From positions 310,001-374,000 of the forward strand of contig NZ_CP084472.1 in NCBI RefSeq assembly GCF_020405225.1: DNA of 64,000 nucleotides. The letters run 5' to 3'. Numbering within the stretch: position 1 is the stretch's first letter; every line of letters starts with the position of its first letter. A model generated the notes under the pieces. The model was not told the DNA's origin, made no database searches, and was given only the letters and a program-made list of their open reading frames with translations. The translations under genes were made by a program, and so were the position numbers. Positions 7,944-19,634 of this stretch are shown here, piece after piece. Source of the stretch: Natrinema sp. DC36 (GTDB lineage Archaea > Halobacteriota > Halobacteria > Halobacteriales > Natrialbaceae).

Positions 7944-9932
7944 TCAGTCGAAGTCGCCCTCGTCGCCGATCTCGGCCTGAATCTCGCCGACGATTTCCGG
8001 ATTGCGGAGCGCGCTGGTATCACCCAGTTCCTCGCCGTTAGCGACGTCCTCGAGCAGGCGGCGCATGATTTTGCCCGAGCGGGTCTTGGGCAGTTCCGGC
8101 GTGAAGATCAACTCCGCGGGGCGGGCGATCGGGCCGATCGCGGATTCGATGCTCTCGAGGATCGCCCGCCGAATCGTCGCGTCGGACTCGTGGCCGCTCT
8201 CGGTGCTGACGTACGCGTAGATCTCGGTGTCCTCGGTCTGGCTCGAGCGGCCGACGACGGCGGCTTCGGCGACGCCGTCGACGTCGGCGATCGCGCCCTC
8301 GATCTCCATCGTCCCGAGTCGGTGGCCGGAGACGTTGATCACGTCGTCGACCCGGCCGAGGACGGTGATATAGCCGTCGTCGTCGGCTCGAGCCGTATCG
8401 CCGCTGAAGTAGCGCCAGTCGTCGGTTTCGGGATCGGAAAAGCGTCGCCAGTACTCCGCGACGAACCGCTCGTCGTTGTCGTACAGCGTCCGCGCCATCC
8501 CCGGCCACGGGCGCGCGATCGTGAGATAGCCGGCCTCGCCGGGAGCGACTTGCTCGCCCTGCGCGTCGACGACGCTGGCGTCGATCCCCGGCAGCGGCGG
8601 CCCCGCCGAGCCTGGTTTCATCTCGTCGATGCCCGGCAGCGTCGAGACGGTCACCGCACCGGTCTCCGTCTGCCACCAGGTGTCGACGACCGGACAGTCC
8701 CCGCCGCCGATGTGTTCGCGATACCAGTTCCAGGGCCGGGGACTGATCGGCTCGCCGACCGTGCCGAGCAGGCGCAGCGACGAGAGGTCGTGGCGCGCGG
8801 GGTAGTCCGAGCCCCACTTCATGAACGCGCGAATCGCCGTCGGCGCGGTGTAGAAGATGTCGACGGCGTTCCGATCGACGATCTCCCAGAGCCGATCCCG
8901 GTCGGGATAGTCGGGCGTCCCCTCGTACATCACGGTCGTCGTCCCCAGCGCGAGCGGCCCGTAGACGATGTAGGAGTGGCCCGTGATCCAGCCGATGTCG
9001 GCCGCACACCAGTAGGTGTCGTCGGGTTTGACGTCGAGAACGGCGTGCGTCGTCCACGCGACGTGAGCGAGGTAGCCCCCCGTCGAGTGGACGACGCCCT
9101 TCGGCTCGCCGGTCGTCCCAGAGGTGTACATTAAGAACAGCATGTCCTCCGCGTCGCGCGAGACCGGCTCGACCGTTTCGCCCGCGAACTCGTCGCGAAG
9201 CTCGTGGTAGTCCCACTCGCCGTCCCCGAGGACGTGCGGGAGGTCGTCGCCGAGCCGGTCGACGACGACCGTTCGGACGTCCTGCTCGAGGTCGATGCGG
9301 GCGTTGTCGGCCTTGCTCTTCTGGTTGAAGGCGTCTCCTCGTCGGTAGTAGCCGTCGCAGGTGATGAGAAACTCGCTGTCCGCGGCGTCCATCCGCGTTG
9401 CGAGCGCATCCGCAGAGAGGCCGGCGAAAACGACGCTGTGGGGTGCACCGATCCGGGCACAGGCCAACATCGCGATCGGCAACTCGGGAATCATCGGCAG
9501 GTAGATCGTCACGACGTCGTCTTCCGCGACGCCGAGGTCGCGCAGGGCCGCCGCGAGTTCGTTGACTTCGACGTAGAGATCCCGATAGGTGTAGGTCCGG
9601 CGCTCGCCCTGTTTCCCCTCCCAGCGGATCGCGGCGTGGTTCTTGCGCCCCGACTCGAGGTGGCGATCCAGGCAGTTGTACGAGGCGTTGAGGCGACCGT
9701 CCGCGAACCAGCGATAGAAGGGCGCGTCCTCCGCCTCGAGGACGGTATCGTACGGCTCGTCCCACGAGAGGAGGTCGGCCGCACGCGTCCAGCAGTCGGG
9801 CCAGTTCGTCTCGAACGACTCGTGAAGCGTCGGATCCGTGACGTTCGCCTGCTCGATGAAGGAGTCGGGAGGGCTGTGGGGAGAGCCGGTCGGCGCGGAC
9901 GCGTCTCGATCCGGCCCGTTCCGTTCGACCAT
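7944..9932 (-). CDS. acs: Acetyl-CoA synthetase (AMP-forming), copy 2
   Basis: A 662-residue paralogue of the acs gene at 3330-5309, with the same landmarks in the same order: the P-loop YTSGTTGEPKGVVHSTGGY, VDTWWQTETGAVTVSTLPG, the hinge RVDDVINVSGHRLGTMEIEG and the catalytic C-terminal PKTRSGKIMRRLLED. Long blocks are identical to copy 1, so the two arose by duplication, but the N-terminus and the surface loops differ. Start chosen at the ATG giving MVERNGPDRDASAPTG. The Bat-type regulator sits between the two copies. Substrate preference could differ (acetate versus propionate), which sequence alone does not settle. Confidence 0.93.
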   Translation of the reverse strand: MVERNGPDRDASAPTGSPHSPPDSFIEQANVTDPTLHESFETNWPDCWTRAADLLSWDEPYDTVLEAEDAPFYRWFADGRLNASYNCLDRHLESGRKNHAAIRWEGKQGERRTYTYRDLYVEVNELAAALRDLGVAEDDVVTIYLPMIPELPIAMLACARIGAPHSVVFAGLSADALATRMDAADSEFLITCDGYYRRGDAFNQKSKADNARIDLEQDVRTVVVDRLGDDLPHVLGDGEWDYHELRDEFAGETVEPVSRDAEDMLFLMYTSGTTGEPKGVVHSTGGYLAHVAWTTHAVLDVKPDDTYWCAADIGWITGHSYIVYGPLALGTTTVMYEGTPDYPDRDRLWEIVDRNAVDIFYTAPTAIRAFMKWGSDYPARHDLSSLRLLGTVGEPISPRPWNWYREHIGGGDCPVVDTWWQTETGAVTVSTLPGIDEMKPGSAGPPLPGIDASVVDAQGEQVAPGEAGYLTIARPWPGMARTLYDNDERFVAEYWRRFSDPETDDWRYFSGDTARADDDGYITVLGRVDDVINVSGHRLGTMEIEGAIADVDGVAEAAVVGRSSQTEDTEIYAYVSTESGHESDATIRRAILESIESAIGPIARPAELIFTPELPKTRSGKIMRRLLEDVANGEELGDTSALRNPEIVGEIQAEIGDEGDFD

Positions 9933-12018: not shown

Positions 12019-12759
12019 TCAGTCGTCGGTCCCCTCCCGTGAGCGATCTTCGATCCCGACACCGCGCGCCGCCGTCGCCTTCACCGAGGCCACGATCGAC
12101 CGCCCGGGCTCGAGTCCCAGCGTCTCGACGCTCCGCCGCGTGACCAGCGCGACGAGTTCGGTGTCGCTCCCGCCGTCGCCACCGTCCGCACTCTCGAGAC
12201 CGATTCCCACCCGAGCGACGGCGTCCCCGGCCTCGAGCCACGAGACGGTCCCCGGGAACCGGTTCCGAACGCTCGTCCCATCGGCTCGCGGCACGTCGCT
12301 TGGCGCGTGGAGACTCACGGCGTCGGAGCGGATCGTCACGGACGCCGTCGCGGCGTCGGCCGGAACGACGGCCAGAATCTCCCCCGCAGCGGTCTCGACG
12401 GTTGCGAGTTCCCCGTCGCGGTCGACGACCGTCCCCCTGAGAACCGTCTCGTCGACGCGGGCGACGCCCTCGTATGCCGCGACCAGTCGATCGAACCGCG
12501 CCAGCAGATCCCGAGCCGTCGGCGTCAGCGAACTGCCACCGCCGTCGGCTCCGCCGCGAGTGCGCTCGACCAGGGGGCCGATCGCCTCCTCGATCGCCAC
12601 CACCCGCTGCTGGAGGCGGGGGTAGGATCGCTCGAGAGCGTCGGCCGCCCCCGACAGCGAGCCGCGGTCGTCGATCGCGCGCAGCATCTCGACGTCACTG
12701 CGATCGACGGCGACATCGTCGATCCGCAGGTAGGGGTCGAACTCCTTTTCCATGGTCAT
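12019..12759 (-). CDS. ModE-like regulator: LysR-type winged helix plus TOBE domain
   Basis: About 246 residues from the ATG at 12759; a longer reading to 12822 adds 21 residues that look like intergenic sequence. Residues about 8-80 form a ModE/LysR-type winged helix (DVEMLRAIDDRGSLSGAADA, then SYPRLQQRVVAIEEAIGPLV). The C-terminal half has two TOBE-like strands (ETVLRGTVVDRDGELATVET and NRFPGTVSWLEAGDAVARVG) that in ModE bind molybdate or tungstate. It is the last gene after tupA-tupB-tupC on the same strand, 69 bases from tupC, so it most likely senses the imported oxyanion and represses uptake. Confidence 0.85.
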   Translation of the reverse strand: MTMEKEFDPYLRIDDVAVDRSDVEMLRAIDDRGSLSGAADALERSYPRLQQRVVAIEEAIGPLVERTRGGADGGGSSLTPTARDLLARFDRLVAAYEGVARVDETVLRGTVVDRDGELATVETAAGEILAVVPADAATASVTIRSDAVSLHAPSDVPRADGTSVRNRFPGTVSWLEAGDAVARVGIGLESADGGDGGSDTELVALVTRRSVETLGLEPGRSIVASVKATAARGVGIEDRSREGTDD

Positions 12760-12828
12760 CGGTGGATCACGCGGTGGGTTCGGTCGAATCGCAGCCGGGT
12801 CCGGAGCCGCTCGAGTCCCCATTCGCGT

Positions 12829-13632
12829 TCACGCGAGAAGTTCGTTTTCATCGTACAACAGGTCTCCGTCGACGAACCGCGCGGTTCGCTCGTCGCGGGG
12901 ATCGTCGAAGATCCGCTCGGGCGGGCCCACTTCGACCAGTTCGCCCTCGAGCAGGAAGGCGACGCGATCCGAGATCCGCTCGGCCTGGTGCATGTCGTGG
13001 GTCGCGAGCAAGACGCCGTGACCGCGCCCCCGGGCGCGCTCGATCGCGCGCTCGAGGATAGCCGTGTTCCGCGGGTCAAGATCAGAGGTCGGCTCGTCGA
13101 GCACCAGCAGGTCCGGTCCCGCGGCGAGTGCGCGGGCGAAGGACACCCGCTGTGCCTCGCCACCAGAGAGCGAGCCCGCGTCCCGGTCCCACTCGTCCCG
13201 GAGTCCGACGAGTTCGAGGGCCTCGAGCGTCCGGTCGTCGACAGTCGGCCGGCTCCGGATCCATCGGTCCGCGAGCCGTCGGCCGAATCCCCGAACGCGC
13301 TGCGACCACGGCCGGCGAACCCGCCGGCCGATATCGACGTTGCGCGCGACCGAGGTCTCGAACAGGCTCGCCTGCTGGAAGACCATGCCGATCCGCCGAC
13401 GGAACTCGAGTCGATCGTCCCGCGACAGCGACCACGGATCCATTCCGTCGCAGCGGACGACGCCGTCGGTCGGTCGCTCGAACAGTGCGGCCAGCCGCAA
13501 CAGCGTCGTCTTGCCGGCCCCCGAAGGGCCGATCACCGTCACGATTTCGCCCGACTCGAGGGGCAGCGAGACGCCGTCCAGAATGTCCGTGTCGTCGACG
13601 CCGTAGGACACGTGCTCGAGCTCGAGATTCAT
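12829..13632 (-). CDS. tupC: Tungstate ABC transporter, ATP-binding protein
   Basis: A 267-residue ABC ATPase. Walker A is GPSGAGKTTLL (about residues 35-45), the Q-loop is MVFQQASLFETSV, the signature is LSGGEAQRVSFARAL, Walker B is LLVLDEPTSDLD and the H-loop is LLATHDMHQAE. It forms an operon with the permease gene (start 35 bases after its stop) and the tungstate-binding protein gene. An Arg-rich insertion (RRPWSQRVRGFGRRLADRW) between the Q-loop and signature is longer than usual. The assignment to tungstate comes from the partner TupA. Confidence 0.9.
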   Translation of the reverse strand: MNLELEHVSYGVDDTDILDGVSLPLESGEIVTVIGPSGAGKTTLLRLAALFERPTDGVVRCDGMDPWSLSRDDRLEFRRRIGMVFQQASLFETSVARNVDIGRRVRRPWSQRVRGFGRRLADRWIRSRPTVDDRTLEALELVGLRDEWDRDAGSLSGGEAQRVSFARALAAGPDLLVLDEPTSDLDPRNTAILERAIERARGRGHGVLLATHDMHQAERISDRVAFLLEGELVEVGPPERIFDDPRDERTARFVDGDLLYDENELLA

Positions 13633-13666
13633 CTCTGATGCGCCTCCGTTGCAGTCGCTCGAATCA

Positions 13667-14338
13667 TTATCGGCCTCCGAGTCGCAGGACGATCCCGTTG
13701 ACGAGCAAGACGAGGACGAGCAACACCGCGCCGAGTACCAGCGCCGTCTCGAACTCGCCGCGGCGCGTCTCGAGCGTGATCGCGGTCGTGATCGTCCGCG
13801 TTTTCGACGTCCCGTCGGCGTAGGCGATGTTGCCGCCGACGATCAGAACCGAGCCGACCTCGCTGATCGCGCGGCCGAAGCCGGCGAGAATTCCGGTCAC
13901 GACGCCGTAGCGCGCCTCCTTGAGGGTGATCAGCGCGACATCGGTTCGGGTCCCCCCGACACCGTAGGCCGCGTCCCGGACGGCGTCGTCGACGCTCTCG
14001 ATGGCCGATAGGGCGACACCGGTGATCACCGGTGCGGCGAGAACGCACTGAGAGATGATCATGGCTTCGGGCGTGTAAACGAGCCCGAGCGCGCCGAGCG
14101 GGCCGCTGTTCGAGAGGGCCATCAAGACGAGCAATCCGACGACGACGCTCGGAAAACCCATTCCCGTGTTGATGATGGCCGTGATCACCCGCTTCCCGCG
14201 GAAGTCCGCGAAGCCGACGACGAAGGCGATCGGTAAACTGAGAAGGGTACTCAACAGGATGGCGGCCAGGCTGACCGTCAGCGAGACCTGAATGATGCTC
14301 CGGAGATAGTTCGGTTCGGCGAGGGACTCGAATGGCAT
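13667..14338 (-). CDS. tupB: Tungstate ABC transporter, permease
   Basis: A 223-residue permease with five or six transmembrane helices, beginning [20 protein letters not shown]. The EAA loop that contacts the ATPase is visible at [20 protein letters not shown], followed by [20 protein letters not shown], which is characteristic of TupB/WtpB-type oxyanion permeases. It lies between the binding-protein and ATPase genes on the same strand. The gene ends in [12 protein letters not shown]. Confidence 0.9.
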
Positions 14339-14398
14339 CGGTAGTAGGTTGTTTCGTCCGGATAGTGGGTCGTTTCGTCCGGGTAGTGGGTCTGTCGA

Positions 14399-15322
14399 TC
14401 ACTCCTCGCTCGAGTCCGGCTGCCATCCTTTCGGGACGTACTGCTGGAAGTTCGGGTCCGCCGACAGGGCCTCGGGGTAGAACAGCTGTTCGCCGTTCGC
14501 CGTGTAGTCCCCGACGAGTTCCTGTCCCTCCGGACTCGTGAAATAGCCGATGTAGGCCATCGCGAGGTCGTAGTTGACGTTCGAGTGGATCTCCGGATTG
14601 GCCGCCATGATCCCGTAGGGGTTCGCGAGCAGTTCCGGCCCGCCCTCGATCGGGCCCTGAAGCAGGATCTCGAGGTCGACGTTGTCCCGCATCGAGAGGA
14701 ACGTCCCCCGATCGGCGAGCGTGTACGAACCCGACTCGCTCGCGTTGTTCAACGTGTTTCCCATCCCGTCACCGAGTTCCTGATACCACTCACCGCCGGG
14801 CTCGGCACCCGATTCGTCCCAGATCGCTAACTCCTTCGTGTGCGTGCCAGAGTCGTCCCCGCGCGAGACGAACTGCGCTTGCGCGCTCGCGATGGCCTCG
14901 AAGGCTGCCGTCGCTTGCTCGGTAGTACCGACGCCCGCCGGGTCGTCGCTCGGCCCGACGATCACGAAGTCATTGAACATCAGGCTCCGCCGGTTGATTC
15001 CGTGTCCGTCCCGCATGAACTCGTCCTCGAGCGAGCGGGCGTGGACCAGAATCACGTCGGCGTTGCCGTTGCGAGCGGACTCGATCGCGGCACCCGTCCC
15101 CTGAGCGTTGGCCGCGACGGGCGTTCCGAACCGCTCCTGGAACGCGGCGTTGATCTCGTCGAGCAGCCCCGTGTCGTACGTGCTGGTCGTCGTCGCGAGC
15201 GCGAGTTCCTCGCCGGCGATCGATCCCTCACCCTGGTCGCTTCCGAGTCCGAGACAGCCGCCAACGGCAGCGGCGATCCCCGCCGCACTCGCCCCGAGTA
15301 GCTCTCGTCGCCGATATTCCAT
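14399..15322 (-). CDS. tupA: Tungstate-binding lipoprotein
   Basis: A 307-residue periplasmic-type binding protein. The N-terminus [20 protein letters not shown] followed by GGCLGLG is a twin-arginine signal ending in a lipobox cysteine (about Cys23), so it is exported folded and lipid-anchored. Immediately after maturation comes [20 protein letters not shown], the TTTS oxyanion-binding motif typical of Tup[19 protein letters not shown] is the second pocket motif. TupA-type proteins bind tungstate far better than molybdate, which fits archaeal use of tungsten enzymes. It is the first gene of the tup operon. Confidence 0.92.
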
Positions 15323-15344
15323 ATTGGGAACAACGATGGAACAC

Positions 15345-15358
15345 AGTGTGATAAACGT
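15345..15358 (-). promoter_or_regulatory. tupA: Probable tupA core promoter (TATA-like element)
   Basis: Reading on the minus strand, TTTATCAC lies about 27-34 bases before the tupA ATG at 15322. This is the expected TATA position for a leaderless or near-leaderless haloarchaeal transcript. No Shine-Dalgarno sequence precedes the start, which is consistent. The perfect palindrome at 15425-15440 lies a further 70 bases upstream. Confidence 0.45.
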
Positions 15359-15424
15359 ACCGCTCAGGGACCCCGACAGTGGTTACCGAGGCCGCTCTCG
15401 GACTCGATGCGAGTGAAAACGTAA

Positions 15425-15440
15425 CTGTAACCGGTTACAG
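15425..15440. promoter_or_regulatory. Perfect 16-bp palindrome, candidate operator upstream of tupA
   Basis: CTGTAACCGGTTACAG is a perfect inverted repeat with no spacer. It lies in the 152-base gap between tupA (start 15322) and the stop of the gene at 15475, 103 bases upstream of tupA. The TAAC/GTTA half-sites resemble the general form of ModE-type operators, and the operon encodes a ModE-like regulator. Binding is an inference. Confidence 0.5.
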
Positions 15441-15474
15441 CGACGGGACTGATCCAATCGACGTTCGACCGAGA

Positions 15475-15939
15475 CTAGTCGGCCTCCGCCACCGCTACCA
15501 CGACGTTCCGAACGTAGCGCATGCTCGTCGCGATGGCCATGATCCCGTCCATCAGTGCCTGCTGGGAGGCACCGTCGGGATAGATTCGGTACTCCACTTG
15601 CACCGTCTCCGCCTCGCGCAGCTGACAGGAGACGCCGTCCTCATCGAGGAACGTGTAGAACCCCGGCGTCGCCGCCAGCATCGGCCCGACGTACTCGAGC
15701 AACTCGCCGCGTCGCTGATCATCGCGAAGCAGGTTTCGGGCCCGCTCGGTATCGAATCCGCTCCGGCCGACGATCCGAACCGGGCCGAACTCGGTCTCCT
15801 TGACGACGTGGACCGGCAGCTGCGAGAGTTCGACCTGGAAGTTGAATTCAGTGTCCTCGTCGGTGTGGGGAGTCACGTTCCGGATGGCCGTGTCGTCCAG
15901 CCAGTGGCGGACCTGCGTTTCGCTGATGTGTCTCGTCAT
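15475..15939 (-). CDS. Uncharacterised conserved protein, possibly DUF2299
   Basis: A 154-residue soluble protein beginning MTRHISETQVRHWLDDTAIR. It appears to be a single alpha/beta domain, with NFQVELSQLPVHVVKETEFG as paired strands and a final helix LMDGIMAIATSMRYVRNVVV. It resembles archaeal DUF2299 proteins as I remember them, but I cannot confirm this. No catalytic motif or membrane segment is visible. It lies upstream of the tup operon on the same strand, separated by about 150 bases containing a palindrome, so it is probably an independent transcript. Confidence 0.7.
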   Translation of the reverse strand: MTRHISETQVRHWLDDTAIRNVTPHTDEDTEFNFQVELSQLPVHVVKETEFGPVRIVGRSGFDTERARNLLRDDQRRGELLEYVGPMLAATPGFYTFLDEDGVSCQLREAETVQVEYRIYPDGASQQALMDGIMAIATSMRYVRNVVVAVAEAD

Positions 15940-16048: not shown

Positions 16049-16963
16049 TCAGTGCTTGTCCGGCATCGTCGAGTGCCGCGTCGTCTTGCGCATATCCGCC
16101 CGTTTGGACGGCGGCGGTGCCATCGTCGAGTGGCGGCTGTGGCCGCCCGACGCCGTTCTACGATTCTCATCGCCGCCGAGACCCGATCCCAGAAGTCCCT
16201 CGTCGTCCTTGTCAGCGTCCTCCTCGTCCGCCGCGTCATCGGCTGTCGCTTCGGCGTCGGCGTCGGTCGTCTCGTCGGTTTCGTCAGCCTCCTCAGTCTC
16301 GGCACTCGCCGACTCGAGTCGCTCCTTGAGTTGCTGGACATCGTCGCCGAACTGCTCGAACGAGGATTCCATCGACGATCGGAGGCGATCTCCGAGATCG
16401 TCAGCCGTCTCGTCCGCTTCCGATTCGGCCGCCTCATCCGCTTCCGATTCAGCCGCCTCGTCCGCTTCCGATTCGGCTGCCTCGTCCTCCGTAGTCGTCG
16501 ACTCGTCGTCCGGCGTGTCCTCGTCGACGTTGCTCTCAGCTCCCTCCGCTTCTTCGGCATCGGATTCGGCCTGTTCGCTCATCGTCTCTTGGAGATCACC
16601 GACAGCCCCTTCAAAGCTGTCGTCGTCAGCCCGGTCGGCGAGTTTCGCGAGGTGGAGCAATCGCTGGAGGTCCTCGAGGTTTCCCTGCTCGCCGCGAGCG
16701 ATAGCCGCCGGGATCGAATCCGGTTCGGAGCCGTCTTCGAGCGTGTCCAGTCCGACCGCTGCGAGCAGTTCGTCTGGGTCGGCCGACTCAAGGATGTCGC
16801 TCGCCTCCCGGGCGGTCTCGAGCAGATCCCGCTCGGCCGACTCGCGCTCATCGCTCGAGTCGTCCTCTCTCTCCGAATCACTGCCCGAAACGATCGATCC
16901 GCTGAACTCGTCGGCCTCGTTCAGTACCTCGTGCACTCGATCGTGAAGTTGTGTGTCGCTCAT
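16049..16963 (-). CDS. Acidic low-complexity protein with basic RHSTM tail (cassette gene 4)
   Basis: A 304-residue protein starting MSDTQLHDRVHEVLNEADEF. Residues about 30-130 form a mostly helical region (ERDLLETAREASDILESADP, then LEDLQRLLHLAKLADRADDD). Residues about 135-190 are nearly pure Glu/Asp/Ala/Ser with a tandem octapeptide, AESEADEA, repeated three to four times. A short helix follows (SSMESSFEQFGDDVQQLKER). The last 30 residues are abruptly basic and contain two related motifs, SRHSTMAPPPSKRADM and TRHSTMPDKH. No signal peptide or membrane helix is seen. It ends a four-gene run on one strand. Function unknown. Confidence 0.8.
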   Translation of the reverse strand: MSDTQLHDRVHEVLNEADEFSGSIVSGSDSEREDDSSDERESAERDLLETAREASDILESADPDELLAAVGLDTLEDGSEPDSIPAAIARGEQGNLEDLQRLLHLAKLADRADDDSFEGAVGDLQETMSEQAESDAEEAEGAESNVDEDTPDDESTTTEDEAAESEADEAAESEADEAAESEADETADDLGDRLRSSMESSFEQFGDDVQQLKERLESASAETEEADETDETTDADAEATADDAADEEDADKDDEGLLGSGLGGDENRRTASGGHSRHSTMAPPPSKRADMRKTTRHSTMPDKH

Positions 16964-17053
16964 CTGTAACTTTCAGGTGGTACCGCCGTGTCGTGTGCGG
17001 TAGTCGGATCGGGAGCGACGGAGTGCAGTCGATCGTCTCGTCCCTGGTGGTCG

Positions 17054-18052
17054 TCACTCGGCTTCCGCTTCCCTTTCAGACTCTTCGTCCGAGTCCGAGT
17101 CCTCATTCGTGGTGGAATCCGACCCCCCATCCGTCACCGCCTCGATGATCTCGTCGGTCATCTCCTCCCGGCTGAGATTCGCCTTCACACCGACATCCTT
17201 CGCGACCGACTGCAGATCGCTGTAGGACATCACGCCGAGGAAGTCCTCGAGCGTATCCTTCCGGAGATCCTCGAGGTCCTCCGCGGACGGCTCGTCCTCG
17301 CCCGCTTCGGGCGGTTCGGCTTCGTCGGTCGATTCTTCGCTTTCCTCAGCCGTCTCGTCACCGTCGGCAGCCGATTCGTCAGCTTCGTCGCCCGTCTCTT
17401 CGCCGTCCTCGCTCCCTTCGCCGACCGTCTCTTTGGCTTTGCTGGCGGCTCCTTCGACCGATCCTTCGGCCGTATCGGCGGCCTCTTTGACTGACTCAGT
17501 GGTGCTCGTTTCGTCGCTTTCAGTGCTGTCGTCCTCCTGTGCGTCCGTTTCGTCCGTCCGCTCCTCGTCTTCGGATTCCGTCTGCTCCTCATCCTCGGAT
17601 TCCGTCTGCTCCTCATCCTCGGATTCCGCCCGTTCCTCGCTCTCGGATTCGTCCTCGTCGGTCTCGTCGCTTCCGACGCCGTCGAGGAGTCCCTCGAGAC
17701 TGCTGCCGTCGGTCACGCCCTTGGCCATCGACTCGAGCGAGTCGCGGCCCTCCACGTTCGCGACCGACTCACGGAGGGCGTCCTTGATCGCCGTCGAGAG
17801 CTCCGTTCGGATCTCGTCGAGTTCCTTTCCTTCCTCGACGCCCGCGGCGATCGTCTCGTGGATCTCCCGACCGATGGACGCGCCGAGTTCGCGCCCGAAC
17901 CGTTCACCGAACTCGCGACCGACCGAAGCGCCGACTTCCCCGCCGTCGATATTGTCCTCGAGACTCCCGTCGCCCAGCATATCGGCGACATCGATCTGGT
18001 TGCTGACCTCATCGGCAACCATGCTCTTCAGTCCGCCGGACTCGTCACTCAC
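17054..18052 (-). CDS. Acidic protein with seven-step glycine ladder and SAP/Rho-N-like C-terminus (cassette gene 3)
   Basis: About 332 residues if translation begins at the GTG at 18052, which gives MSDESGGLKSM and matches the MSDES/MSDT starts of its neighbours; a GTG at 18061 is the alternative. Residues about 37-61 carry glycine at every fourth position (GGEVGASVGREFGERFGREL and on), a helix-packing pattern. A long Glu/Asp/Ser region follows with a repeated EQTESEDE unit. Near the C-terminus, DFLGVMSYSDLQSVAKDVGV followed by KANLSREEMTDEIIEAV resembles a SAP/Rho-N helix-extension-helix fold, which often binds nucleic acid. Third gene of the four-gene cassette. Confidence 0.8.
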   Translation of the reverse strand: MSDESGGLKSMVADEVSNQIDVADMLGDGSLEDNIDGGEVGASVGREFGERFGRELGASIGREIHETIAAGVEEGKELDEIRTELSTAIKDALRESVANVEGRDSLESMAKGVTDGSSLEGLLDGVGSDETDEDESESEERAESEDEEQTESEDEEQTESEDEERTDETDAQEDDSTESDETSTTESVKEAADTAEGSVEGAASKAKETVGEGSEDGEETGDEADESAADGDETAEESEESTDEAEPPEAGEDEPSAEDLEDLRKDTLEDFLGVMSYSDLQSVAKDVGVKANLSREEMTDEIIEAVTDGGSDSTTNEDSDSDEESEREAEAE

Positions 18053-18105
18053 GGCGACCACCTCGAGTCGGTTCGCGGAGCGGCTGCGTTCCCTGAATCA
18101 CGGTC

Positions 18106-18636
18106 TTATTCCTCGGCTTCGGCCGTCTGCTCTGATTCGTCGTCCGCCGATTCCTCGTCCGCCGCGTCCGATTCGTCGTCGCCTTGCGCCTCGCTCTCGT
18201 CTGCGTCGTCCTCGGATTCGTTCTCGCCGCTCTCGTCGCCACTCTTGGCGTCGGTCTCATCTGCACCCTCTTCGTCCGCGTCGTCTTCTTTGGCGGACTC
18301 GTCGTCGTCTTCGGCGCTTTCGTCAGCAGACTCGTCGTCTGCTTCATCATCTTCCTCGCCATCCTCGGCACTGCCTTCGTCGGACTCCTCGTCCGTCTCA
18401 TCCTCCTCGTCGGAGCTGAGGAGTTCGTCGACGACCATGTTCCCGATCGTCCGCCCGAGGGATTCGCCGATCGCCCGGCCGAGGATCGCGCCGATCTGTC
18501 CGCCCAGCGCCTCTCCGAGCGGTTTGTCCCCGTCGATCTCGTCTTCCCACTCGGTTCCCTCGACCAGTTCGTCGACGTCGATGTTCTCGGTGATCTTCTC
18601 GGTATCGACCCGCTGTGTGAGTGACTCGTCGCTCAT
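18106..18636 (-). CDS. Acidic protein with seven-step glycine ladder (cassette gene 2)
   Basis: A 176-residue protein starting MSDESLTQRVDTEKITENID. Residues 41-65 place a glycine at exactly every fourth position (GEALGGQIGAILGRAIGESL, then GRTIGNMVVDELL), giving one face of a long helix lined with glycine. The rest, about residues 75-176, is almost entirely Glu, Asp, Ser and Ala and is presumably disordered. The ladder and the sequence before it are clearly related to cassette gene 3. Its ATG overlaps the stop codon of cassette gene 1 by one base, so the two are translationally coupled. Confidence 0.8.
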   Translation of the reverse strand: MSDESLTQRVDTEKITENIDVDELVEGTEWEDEIDGDKPLGEALGGQIGAILGRAIGESLGRTIGNMVVDELLSSDEEDETDEESDEGSAEDGEEDDEADDESADESAEDDDESAKEDDADEEGADETDAKSGDESGENESEDDADESEAQGDDESDAADEESADDESEQTAEAEE

Positions 18637-19523
18637 TATGCTGCCTCCGCCTGTGACGGCTCCGCCTGTCCGCCGCTCTCTTCGTCCTGATCCGGCTCGA
18701 GTTGCTCGAGCAACTGTTCGAGCACAGCGCTAACAATCGCCGAGACGATCTCCTCGGTGGGGAGGCTCGGAGCGAGTCCGGATAGTTTCTCTCTCACCCA
18801 GGTCGCGGCTCCCATGACCCCGTTCTTCAGACGCCGTACCGCCGACGAAAGCGGACCGGAGGACTCGTCTTCGCTTTCGGACGCCTCTTCTTCCTCGGCG
18901 TCCGACTCACTCGCTTCCTCGTCCCCGCCGAAGAGCCCCGTGAGCTTTTCGACGGGCTTGTTCAGCAGGTTTTTGACGAACTCGATCGGCTTGCTCAACA
19001 GCGACTTCGCCTTGTCGATCATCGCGCCGGGGCCGTCCAGCAGCCCCGACACCGCCGACAGCAGATTCCCCAGCAGGTTGTTCTCACCCGGTCGCGCCGA
19101 GACGTCCAGCGTCATCGGATCCAGATTGACCTCGAGTCCGAGCAGATCGAGGAACACCCCGTCGAGGTCGAGGTGGACGACGCCCGACGCGTCGTCGCTC
19201 TGGTAGACCTCGTCGGTACCCTGGACATGGGACTCGTCTTCCTCCGCCTCGTCCTCGGCTTCTTCCGCGTCTTCTGACTCCGTCTCCGAACCTTCGCCTT
19301 CGGCCCCTTCTTCACCGTCGCCCTCCGCTTCGGGGTCTGCCTCGCTCGAGTCGTCGTCTTGCTCGGCGTCGGACTCCTCCATCTCCGCTTGCCCACCGTC
19401 AGTCAGCACTCGGCGTGGCGATCCTGCCGTCGATTCGGCTTCGTCGGGACGGCTCGAGGCCTGTTCGGTTCCGTCGGGAGCCGAACGTTCCTCGGTGCCG
19501 TCGGATGCGAAATCCTCGGTCAT
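18636..19523 (-). CDS. Acidic protein with LDLLGLEV-type amphipathic core (cassette gene 1)
   Basis: A 295-residue protein. Residues 1-95 are acidic low complexity. The core, about 110-200, is amphipathic: VVHLDLDGVFLDLLGLEVNL, then LDVSARPGENNLLGNLLSAV, SGLLDGPGAMIDKAKSLLSK and PIEFVKNLLNKPVEKLTGLF. The LDLLGLEV and NNLLGNLL strings resemble a motif I recall from uncharacterised actinobacterial and haloarchaeal proteins. A second helical segment (PLSSAVRRLKNGVMGAATWV, then EEIVSAIVSAVLEQLLEQL) closes the chain. No Tat or Sec signal is visible, so it is probably cytoplasmic. First gene of the cassette. Function unknown. Confidence 0.8.
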   Translation of the reverse strand: MTEDFASDGTEERSAPDGTEQASSRPDEAESTAGSPRRVLTDGGQAEMEESDAEQDDDSSEADPEAEGDGEEGAEGEGSETESEDAEEAEDEAEEDESHVQGTDEVYQSDDASGVVHLDLDGVFLDLLGLEVNLDPMTLDVSARPGENNLLGNLLSAVSGLLDGPGAMIDKAKSLLSKPIEFVKNLLNKPVEKLTGLFGGDEEASESDAEEEEASESEDESSGPLSSAVRRLKNGVMGAATWVREKLSGLAPSLPTEEIVSAIVSAVLEQLLEQLEPDQDEESGGQAEPSQAEAA

Positions 19524-19634
19524 TATACGGAAACACAGACGAGAGAGAGCGTTGTGGCGGTTGGCCTTGCGTATGCGACTACCCCGACGTACTGCGGCAG
19601 AAAATCCTGCTGACGGCCGAATCGATCGACCGCG

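Follow-up and report, generated by a model that had tools for sequence, protein, structure and literature searches.

A conserved four-gene module of acidic proteins associated with gas-vesicle genes in haloarchaea

Four adjacent genes encoding highly acidic proteins

The stretch of DNA analyzed here (64,000 nucleotides of contig NZ_CP084472.1 of Natrinema sp. DC36, hereafter "the window") includes four neighboring genes on the minus strand, designated g1 to g4. The first, g1 (18636..19523, 295 aa), encodes an acidic and largely disordered protein with an amphipathic core, while g2 (18106..18636, 176 aa) combines an N-terminal glycine-ladder domain with an acidic tail, g3 (17054..18061, 335 aa) contains a glycine-ladder domain, an acidic linker, and a SAP/Rho-N-like C-terminal domain, and g4 (16049..16963, 304 aa) encodes a paralogue of GvpI. 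Genes g1 and g2 overlap by one base (18636), and gaps of 44 nt and 90 nt separate g2 from g3 and g3 from g4, respectively. With aspartate and glutamate contents of 45% (g2), 35% (g3), 33% (g4), and 27% (g1), the four proteins rank first to fourth among the 55 open reading frames (ORFs) of the window (median 19%). The highest mean hydropathy over 19 residues in any of them is 1.3, thus no transmembrane helix is expected. When compared to Pfam, NCBIfam, and PHROGs, none of the four displayed a match above the curated cut-offs.

Within these acidic sequences, alignments revealed conserved cores. In g1, the LDLLGLEV..NNLLGNLL domain (19032..19202, minus strand, residues 108–164) is predicted with low confidence to fold into four short strands and then helices. 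This core had no relative by sequence among solved structures and no Pfam or NCBIfam family, a fold search with the model returned nothing useful since the model is too uncertain, and a possible relationship to GvpA was rejected (g1 core against the GvpA/J/M profile, E 0.35). The N-termini of g2 and g3 are homologous to each other (hhalign E 4e-12), and both display G-xxx-G ladders in which five glycines are invariant in g2 and the glycines of g3 are invariant or nearly so. The g3 ladder (17834..17944, minus strand) is modeled as a long helix (pLDDT 84–96). The glycine zipper family PF13488 scored 13.5 bits against g2, below its cut-off of 25, the G-xxx-G pattern itself being invariant. The g3 C-terminus (17129..17284, minus strand) is predicted to form a compact helical domain (pLDDT about 90), and SAP and Rho N-terminal chains recur among its structural hits; the scores behind this resemblance in fold are weak (Foldseek E > 1, Z ~3–6), no Pfam family matches g3, and nucleic-acid binding is not implied. 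Separately, one genome (G085) encodes three tandem g2/g3-like genes (L148:10628-12969), the middle one with an inserted carboxypeptidase-regulatory-like beta domain. Finally, g4 ends in a basic tail (16052..16150, minus strand) with a double STM(A)P motif common to GvpI, and its final 33 residues have a pI of 11.6. An initial annotation of this locus had described four ORFs on one strand with a one-base overlap between g1 and g2, extremely acidic proteins devoid of transmembrane helices, ordered cores including an RHSTM tail in g4, and a SAP/Rho-N-like end in g3, all of which agrees with the present analysis.

The same annotation had proposed that the four genes form a system, and they are indeed conserved together, thereby passing the refutation test that it had set. 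Of the 25 genomes of the genus, 22 carry the complete set in order at one and the same site, so these are genes and not chance ORFs. Among the remaining three, the module is decayed in G005 (g1 truncated, g4 disrupted) and in G013, which retains fragments only, and is absent from G006. Among named records, the cassette is carried by Natrinema and other members of the Natrialbaceae. In the genus, the module is flanked on one side by a TupABC-like transporter locus that includes a DUF2299-like gene, and on the other by the gene of a PQQ/WD-type protein with cobalamin genes beyond it. In the window, the region directly downstream (12019-15939) encodes a ModE-like regulator, a TupC/B/A-like tungstate ABC transporter, and a DUF2299-like protein, and its synteny with the module is kept over much of the genus. 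Upstream of g1, the element TCGCATACGCAAGGCCAA (19561..19578, minus strand) is shared between genera of the window's family, has no second exact copy in the genome, and probably represents a promoter or operator. A promoter motif common to g1 and gvpA was also considered and rejected, as the AGTCGCA..CAAG match was no better than that of shuffled sequences (p 0.38–0.66).

Linkage to gas-vesicle gene clusters

According to the initial annotation, no known system fitted the cassette. This does not hold, as the gas vesicle does: homologues of the module lie in gvp clusters, co-occurrence with GvpA/J/M is near complete, and g4 matches GvpI. In G036 (L050), a single strand carries gvpF-G-H-I-J-K-L-M-g1-g2-g3-g4, and in two genomes of the window's own family (G312 and G335; L160 and L161), gvpA-gvpO-g1-g2-g3-g4 and gvpF-M are transcribed in divergent directions. 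Other genera have g1 and g2/g3-like genes next to gvpA-gvpO (L130, L131, L138, L143, L146, L147, and L163), or a g1 placed between gvpG/H and gvpI (L053, L141, and L149). The module has a locus to itself in most genera of the window's family (L107-L128). Many of the clusters with an adjacent module (L050, L051, L053, L130, L146, and L160) yielded no gvpN match, unlike the main cluster of the window's genus.

We compared the distribution of the g1 core with that of PF00741 (GvpA/J/M) across 392 Halobacteriales genomes. Both were detected in 135 genomes, g1 only in 3, PF00741 only in 28, and neither in 226, i.e., the g1 core is present in 138 genomes overall and in 135 of the 163 gvp-positive ones, although these genomes are not independent and Fisher p-values therefore overstate the significance of the association. 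The corresponding counts (both, g1 only, gvp only, neither) were 83, 0, 3, and 10 within the family and 52, 3, 25, and 216 outside of it. Of the three g1-only genomes, two are based on weak matches (E 5e-6 and 7e-5), and the third is 70% complete. Across 41 relatives, the module and PF00741 were nearly identical in distribution, and within the genus the two appear to have been lost together, with both absent from G006 and gvpA absent from G013, where only module fragments persist. Conversely, G005 retains PF00741 genes despite its decayed module, which is thus either dispensable or newly lost in this genome. Adjacency and co-loss are stronger arguments for a gvp link than the co-occurrence statistics, and taken together these patterns point to a strong association of the module with gas vesicles.

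The g1 core is not restricted to these loci. It is found on haloarchaeal plasmids (L223 and L237), so that the lack of a tblastn match to the core in a plasmid collection is uninformative, and it also turns up in proteins of Actinobacteria, Chloroflexi, and Rubrobacter, most of which seem, on inspection by eye, to carry signal peptides. These apparently secreted bacterial proteins have conserved cysteines and no gvp genes nearby. In the actinobacterial genus Kribbella, a short and apparently non-secreted protein consisting mostly of the g1 core is encoded ~0.4–6 kb from gvpA in three of four loci examined (Kribbella g1-core proteins at L226:3221-3526, L229:7923-8291, and L243 about 8000-8270).

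Could the module instead belong to a system unrelated to gas vesicles, and co-occur with them through a common lifestyle or ancestry? The secreted bacterial proteins with a g1 core, the ~955 kb between the module and the gvp genes of this genome, and its tungstate-transport-like and cobalamin neighbors would all fit such an explanation. However, we consider it highly improbable, as it is already contradicted by the synteny with gvp genes in many genera, and it also conflicts with the co-loss in the genus, the absence of any convincing g1 without gvp among the 392 genomes, and the homology between g4 and GvpI.

A GvpI paralogue and the near exclusion of GvpC

Profile comparisons indicate that g4 is a paralogue of GvpI. 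A g4 profile built from 22 proteins matched a GvpI profile of 22 proteins over 238 columns (hhalign probability 99.5, E 3e-23), whereas control profiles of equal acidity (g4–g3, GvpI–g1, and GvpI–g3) only yielded E-values of 0.08 or more, making a composition artefact unlikely. The annotated GvpI of NRC-1 gave E 9e-12 with the GvpI profile and E 8.5e-5 with that of g4, the latter match running through the double STMP/STVP tail; an alignment of the tails likewise shows a double STMP...STVP motif towards the C-terminus of g4. The closest known counterparts of g4 are GvpI of Halobacterium salinarum, from the gvp cluster of pNRC100, and the long GvpI proteins of Natrialbaceae. It aligns over its length with haloarchaeal GvpI and has the tail in common with NRC-1 GvpI, but it is acidic save for the tail, which ends at STMP and lacks the final RIYGxRF segment of GvpI. 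Since g4 also lies outside the gvpH-gvpJ interval, it is best described as a paralogue and not as GvpI itself. The possibility that g4 is a displaced gvpI was ruled out, as the main gvp cluster of this genome has its own gvpI (L060:9182-10108); the genus having kept this gene, g4 represents an extra copy.

This main cluster (L060), ~955 kb from the module, comprises gvpA-N-O and gvpF-M. Its gvpA ends 7 nt before gvpN, and consequently there is no gvpC in the cluster. The gene directly following gvpA is thus gvpN and not a module gene, so that no module gene occupies the position of gvpC; a relationship between g3 and GvpC was similarly rejected (NRC-1 GvpC against the g3 profile, the only module protein compared, E 0.56). 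Two side observations concern such clusters. First, two conserved TTGC-N4-GC elements (CTTGCAGTCGCAG) lie between the divergent gvpF and gvpA in the genus (L060, L061, L072, and others), and could possibly be the binding site of some regulator, the genus being devoid of gvpD and gvpE. Second, an in-frame stop interrupts the gvpN reading frame at about position 12450 of L075 (G017).

More broadly, of the 28 genomes with gvp but without g1, at least 9 had a recognized gvpC, a minimum estimate obtained from a single-sequence search of limited sensitivity and from the reading of loci in part of these genomes. Among g1-positive genomes, gvpC was found in one only, G020, a member of the genus whose two gvp clusters differ in this gene (present in L069, absent from L064). 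In addition, at least eight further g1-negative gvp loci contained no recognized gvpC on reading. The near exclusion between module and gvpC thus appears strong, yet G020 and these eight or more loci indicate that it is not a strict either/or. A passage of the Natrialba magadii genome paper (PMC3403918) notes an N-terminally extended GvpI homologue and the lack of gvpC, D, and E, and makes no mention of a g1–g4 module.

Possible roles in gas vesicles

We propose that g1–g4 form an accessory module of GvpC-less haloarchaeal gas vesicles, which in the window's family is mostly encoded at a separate site, apart from the main gvp cluster, and whose products would build an outer coat or scaffold of the GvpA shell. 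We assign this reading a probability of about 0.5. The amphipathic core of g1 would bind the outer face of the finished or nascent GvpA shell, g2 and g3 would oligomerize via their glycine-ladder helices, and g4, in the manner of GvpI, would tether the module to the GvpH/GvpL/GvpF accessory complex via its basic STMP tail, while the acidic tails may keep the layer soluble at molar salt. Jointly, the four proteins could form a flexible outer layer reinforcing the shell and determining the shape, length, or packing of the vesicles, standing in for the work performed by GvpC and GvpI in Halobacterium. This proposal is guided by the published phenotypes of GvpI loss (very long vesicles) and GvpC loss (fragile, misshapen vesicles; PMC4390858), and by the GvpH–GvpI–GvpL contacts described in PMC7688916. 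The module would resemble GvpC in its proposed outer-shell role and in its largely complementary genomic distribution, but differs from it in lacking GvpC-type helical repeats and in not being placed between gvpA and gvpN. A scaffold-type role, as suggested by the initial annotation, is plausible, here around a cellular body. Weighing against the proposal are the retention of PF00741 genes in G005 despite its decayed module, the gvp loci with neither g1 nor a recognized gvpC, the status of g4 as an extra copy beside gvpI, the low-confidence model of g1, and the published statement that some species with such clusters do not form vesicles (PMC4390858).

Two other functions within the gas-vesicle system can be envisioned. 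The module may cluster gas vesicles, similar to what has been published for GvpU and GvpT (PMC11445434), two non-core gas-vesicle proteins of Priestia megaterium to which the module is likened by description, not sequence, with clustering as the possible common function. The same genetic links to gvp genes would apply, and the long low-complexity acidic tails and multivalent oligomerization motifs would suit such a role, but clustering leaves the frequent absence of gvpC alongside the module unexplained, and we regard it as fairly unlikely. The products of g1–g4 may alternatively act in assembly and remain outside the finished vesicle, keeping GvpA/J/M soluble or helping nucleation as GvpH and GvpI do. 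The homology of g4 to GvpI, which in pull-down assays causes GvpJ, K, and M to oligomerize more readily (PMC7688916), and the intercalation of g1 and a g2-like gene between gvpH and gvpI in L053 are in line with this idea; on the other hand, g1–g3 resemble no known Gvp chaperone, and the near exclusion of gvpC points to a shell role, so that a chaperone module seems unlikely.

Most gvp-bearing haloarchaea might even possess a second architectural class of vesicle, in which g1–g3 and a GvpI paralogue replace GvpC as the outer layer, and the key domain of which also exists in bacteria, including near the gvp genes of Kribbella. We put this forward tentatively, as it is somewhat more likely to fail than to hold.

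The haloarchaeal gvp inventory given in the available portions of two open-licence reviews consists of gvpA and gvpC-O (PMC4390858, PMC9501494), and nothing in these portions matches g1–g3. The g1–g4 genes thus appear to be unrecognized components of a known organelle, and the inventory gains up to four candidate genes, offering a possible reason why gvp clusters that seem sufficient by gene count might be incomplete. Since gas vesicles serve as ultrasound reporters, a novel module acting on their coat, shape, or clustering could also find practical use. Overall, the module provides a testable answer to the question of how haloarchaea devoid of GvpC could produce vesicles that are mechanically stable.
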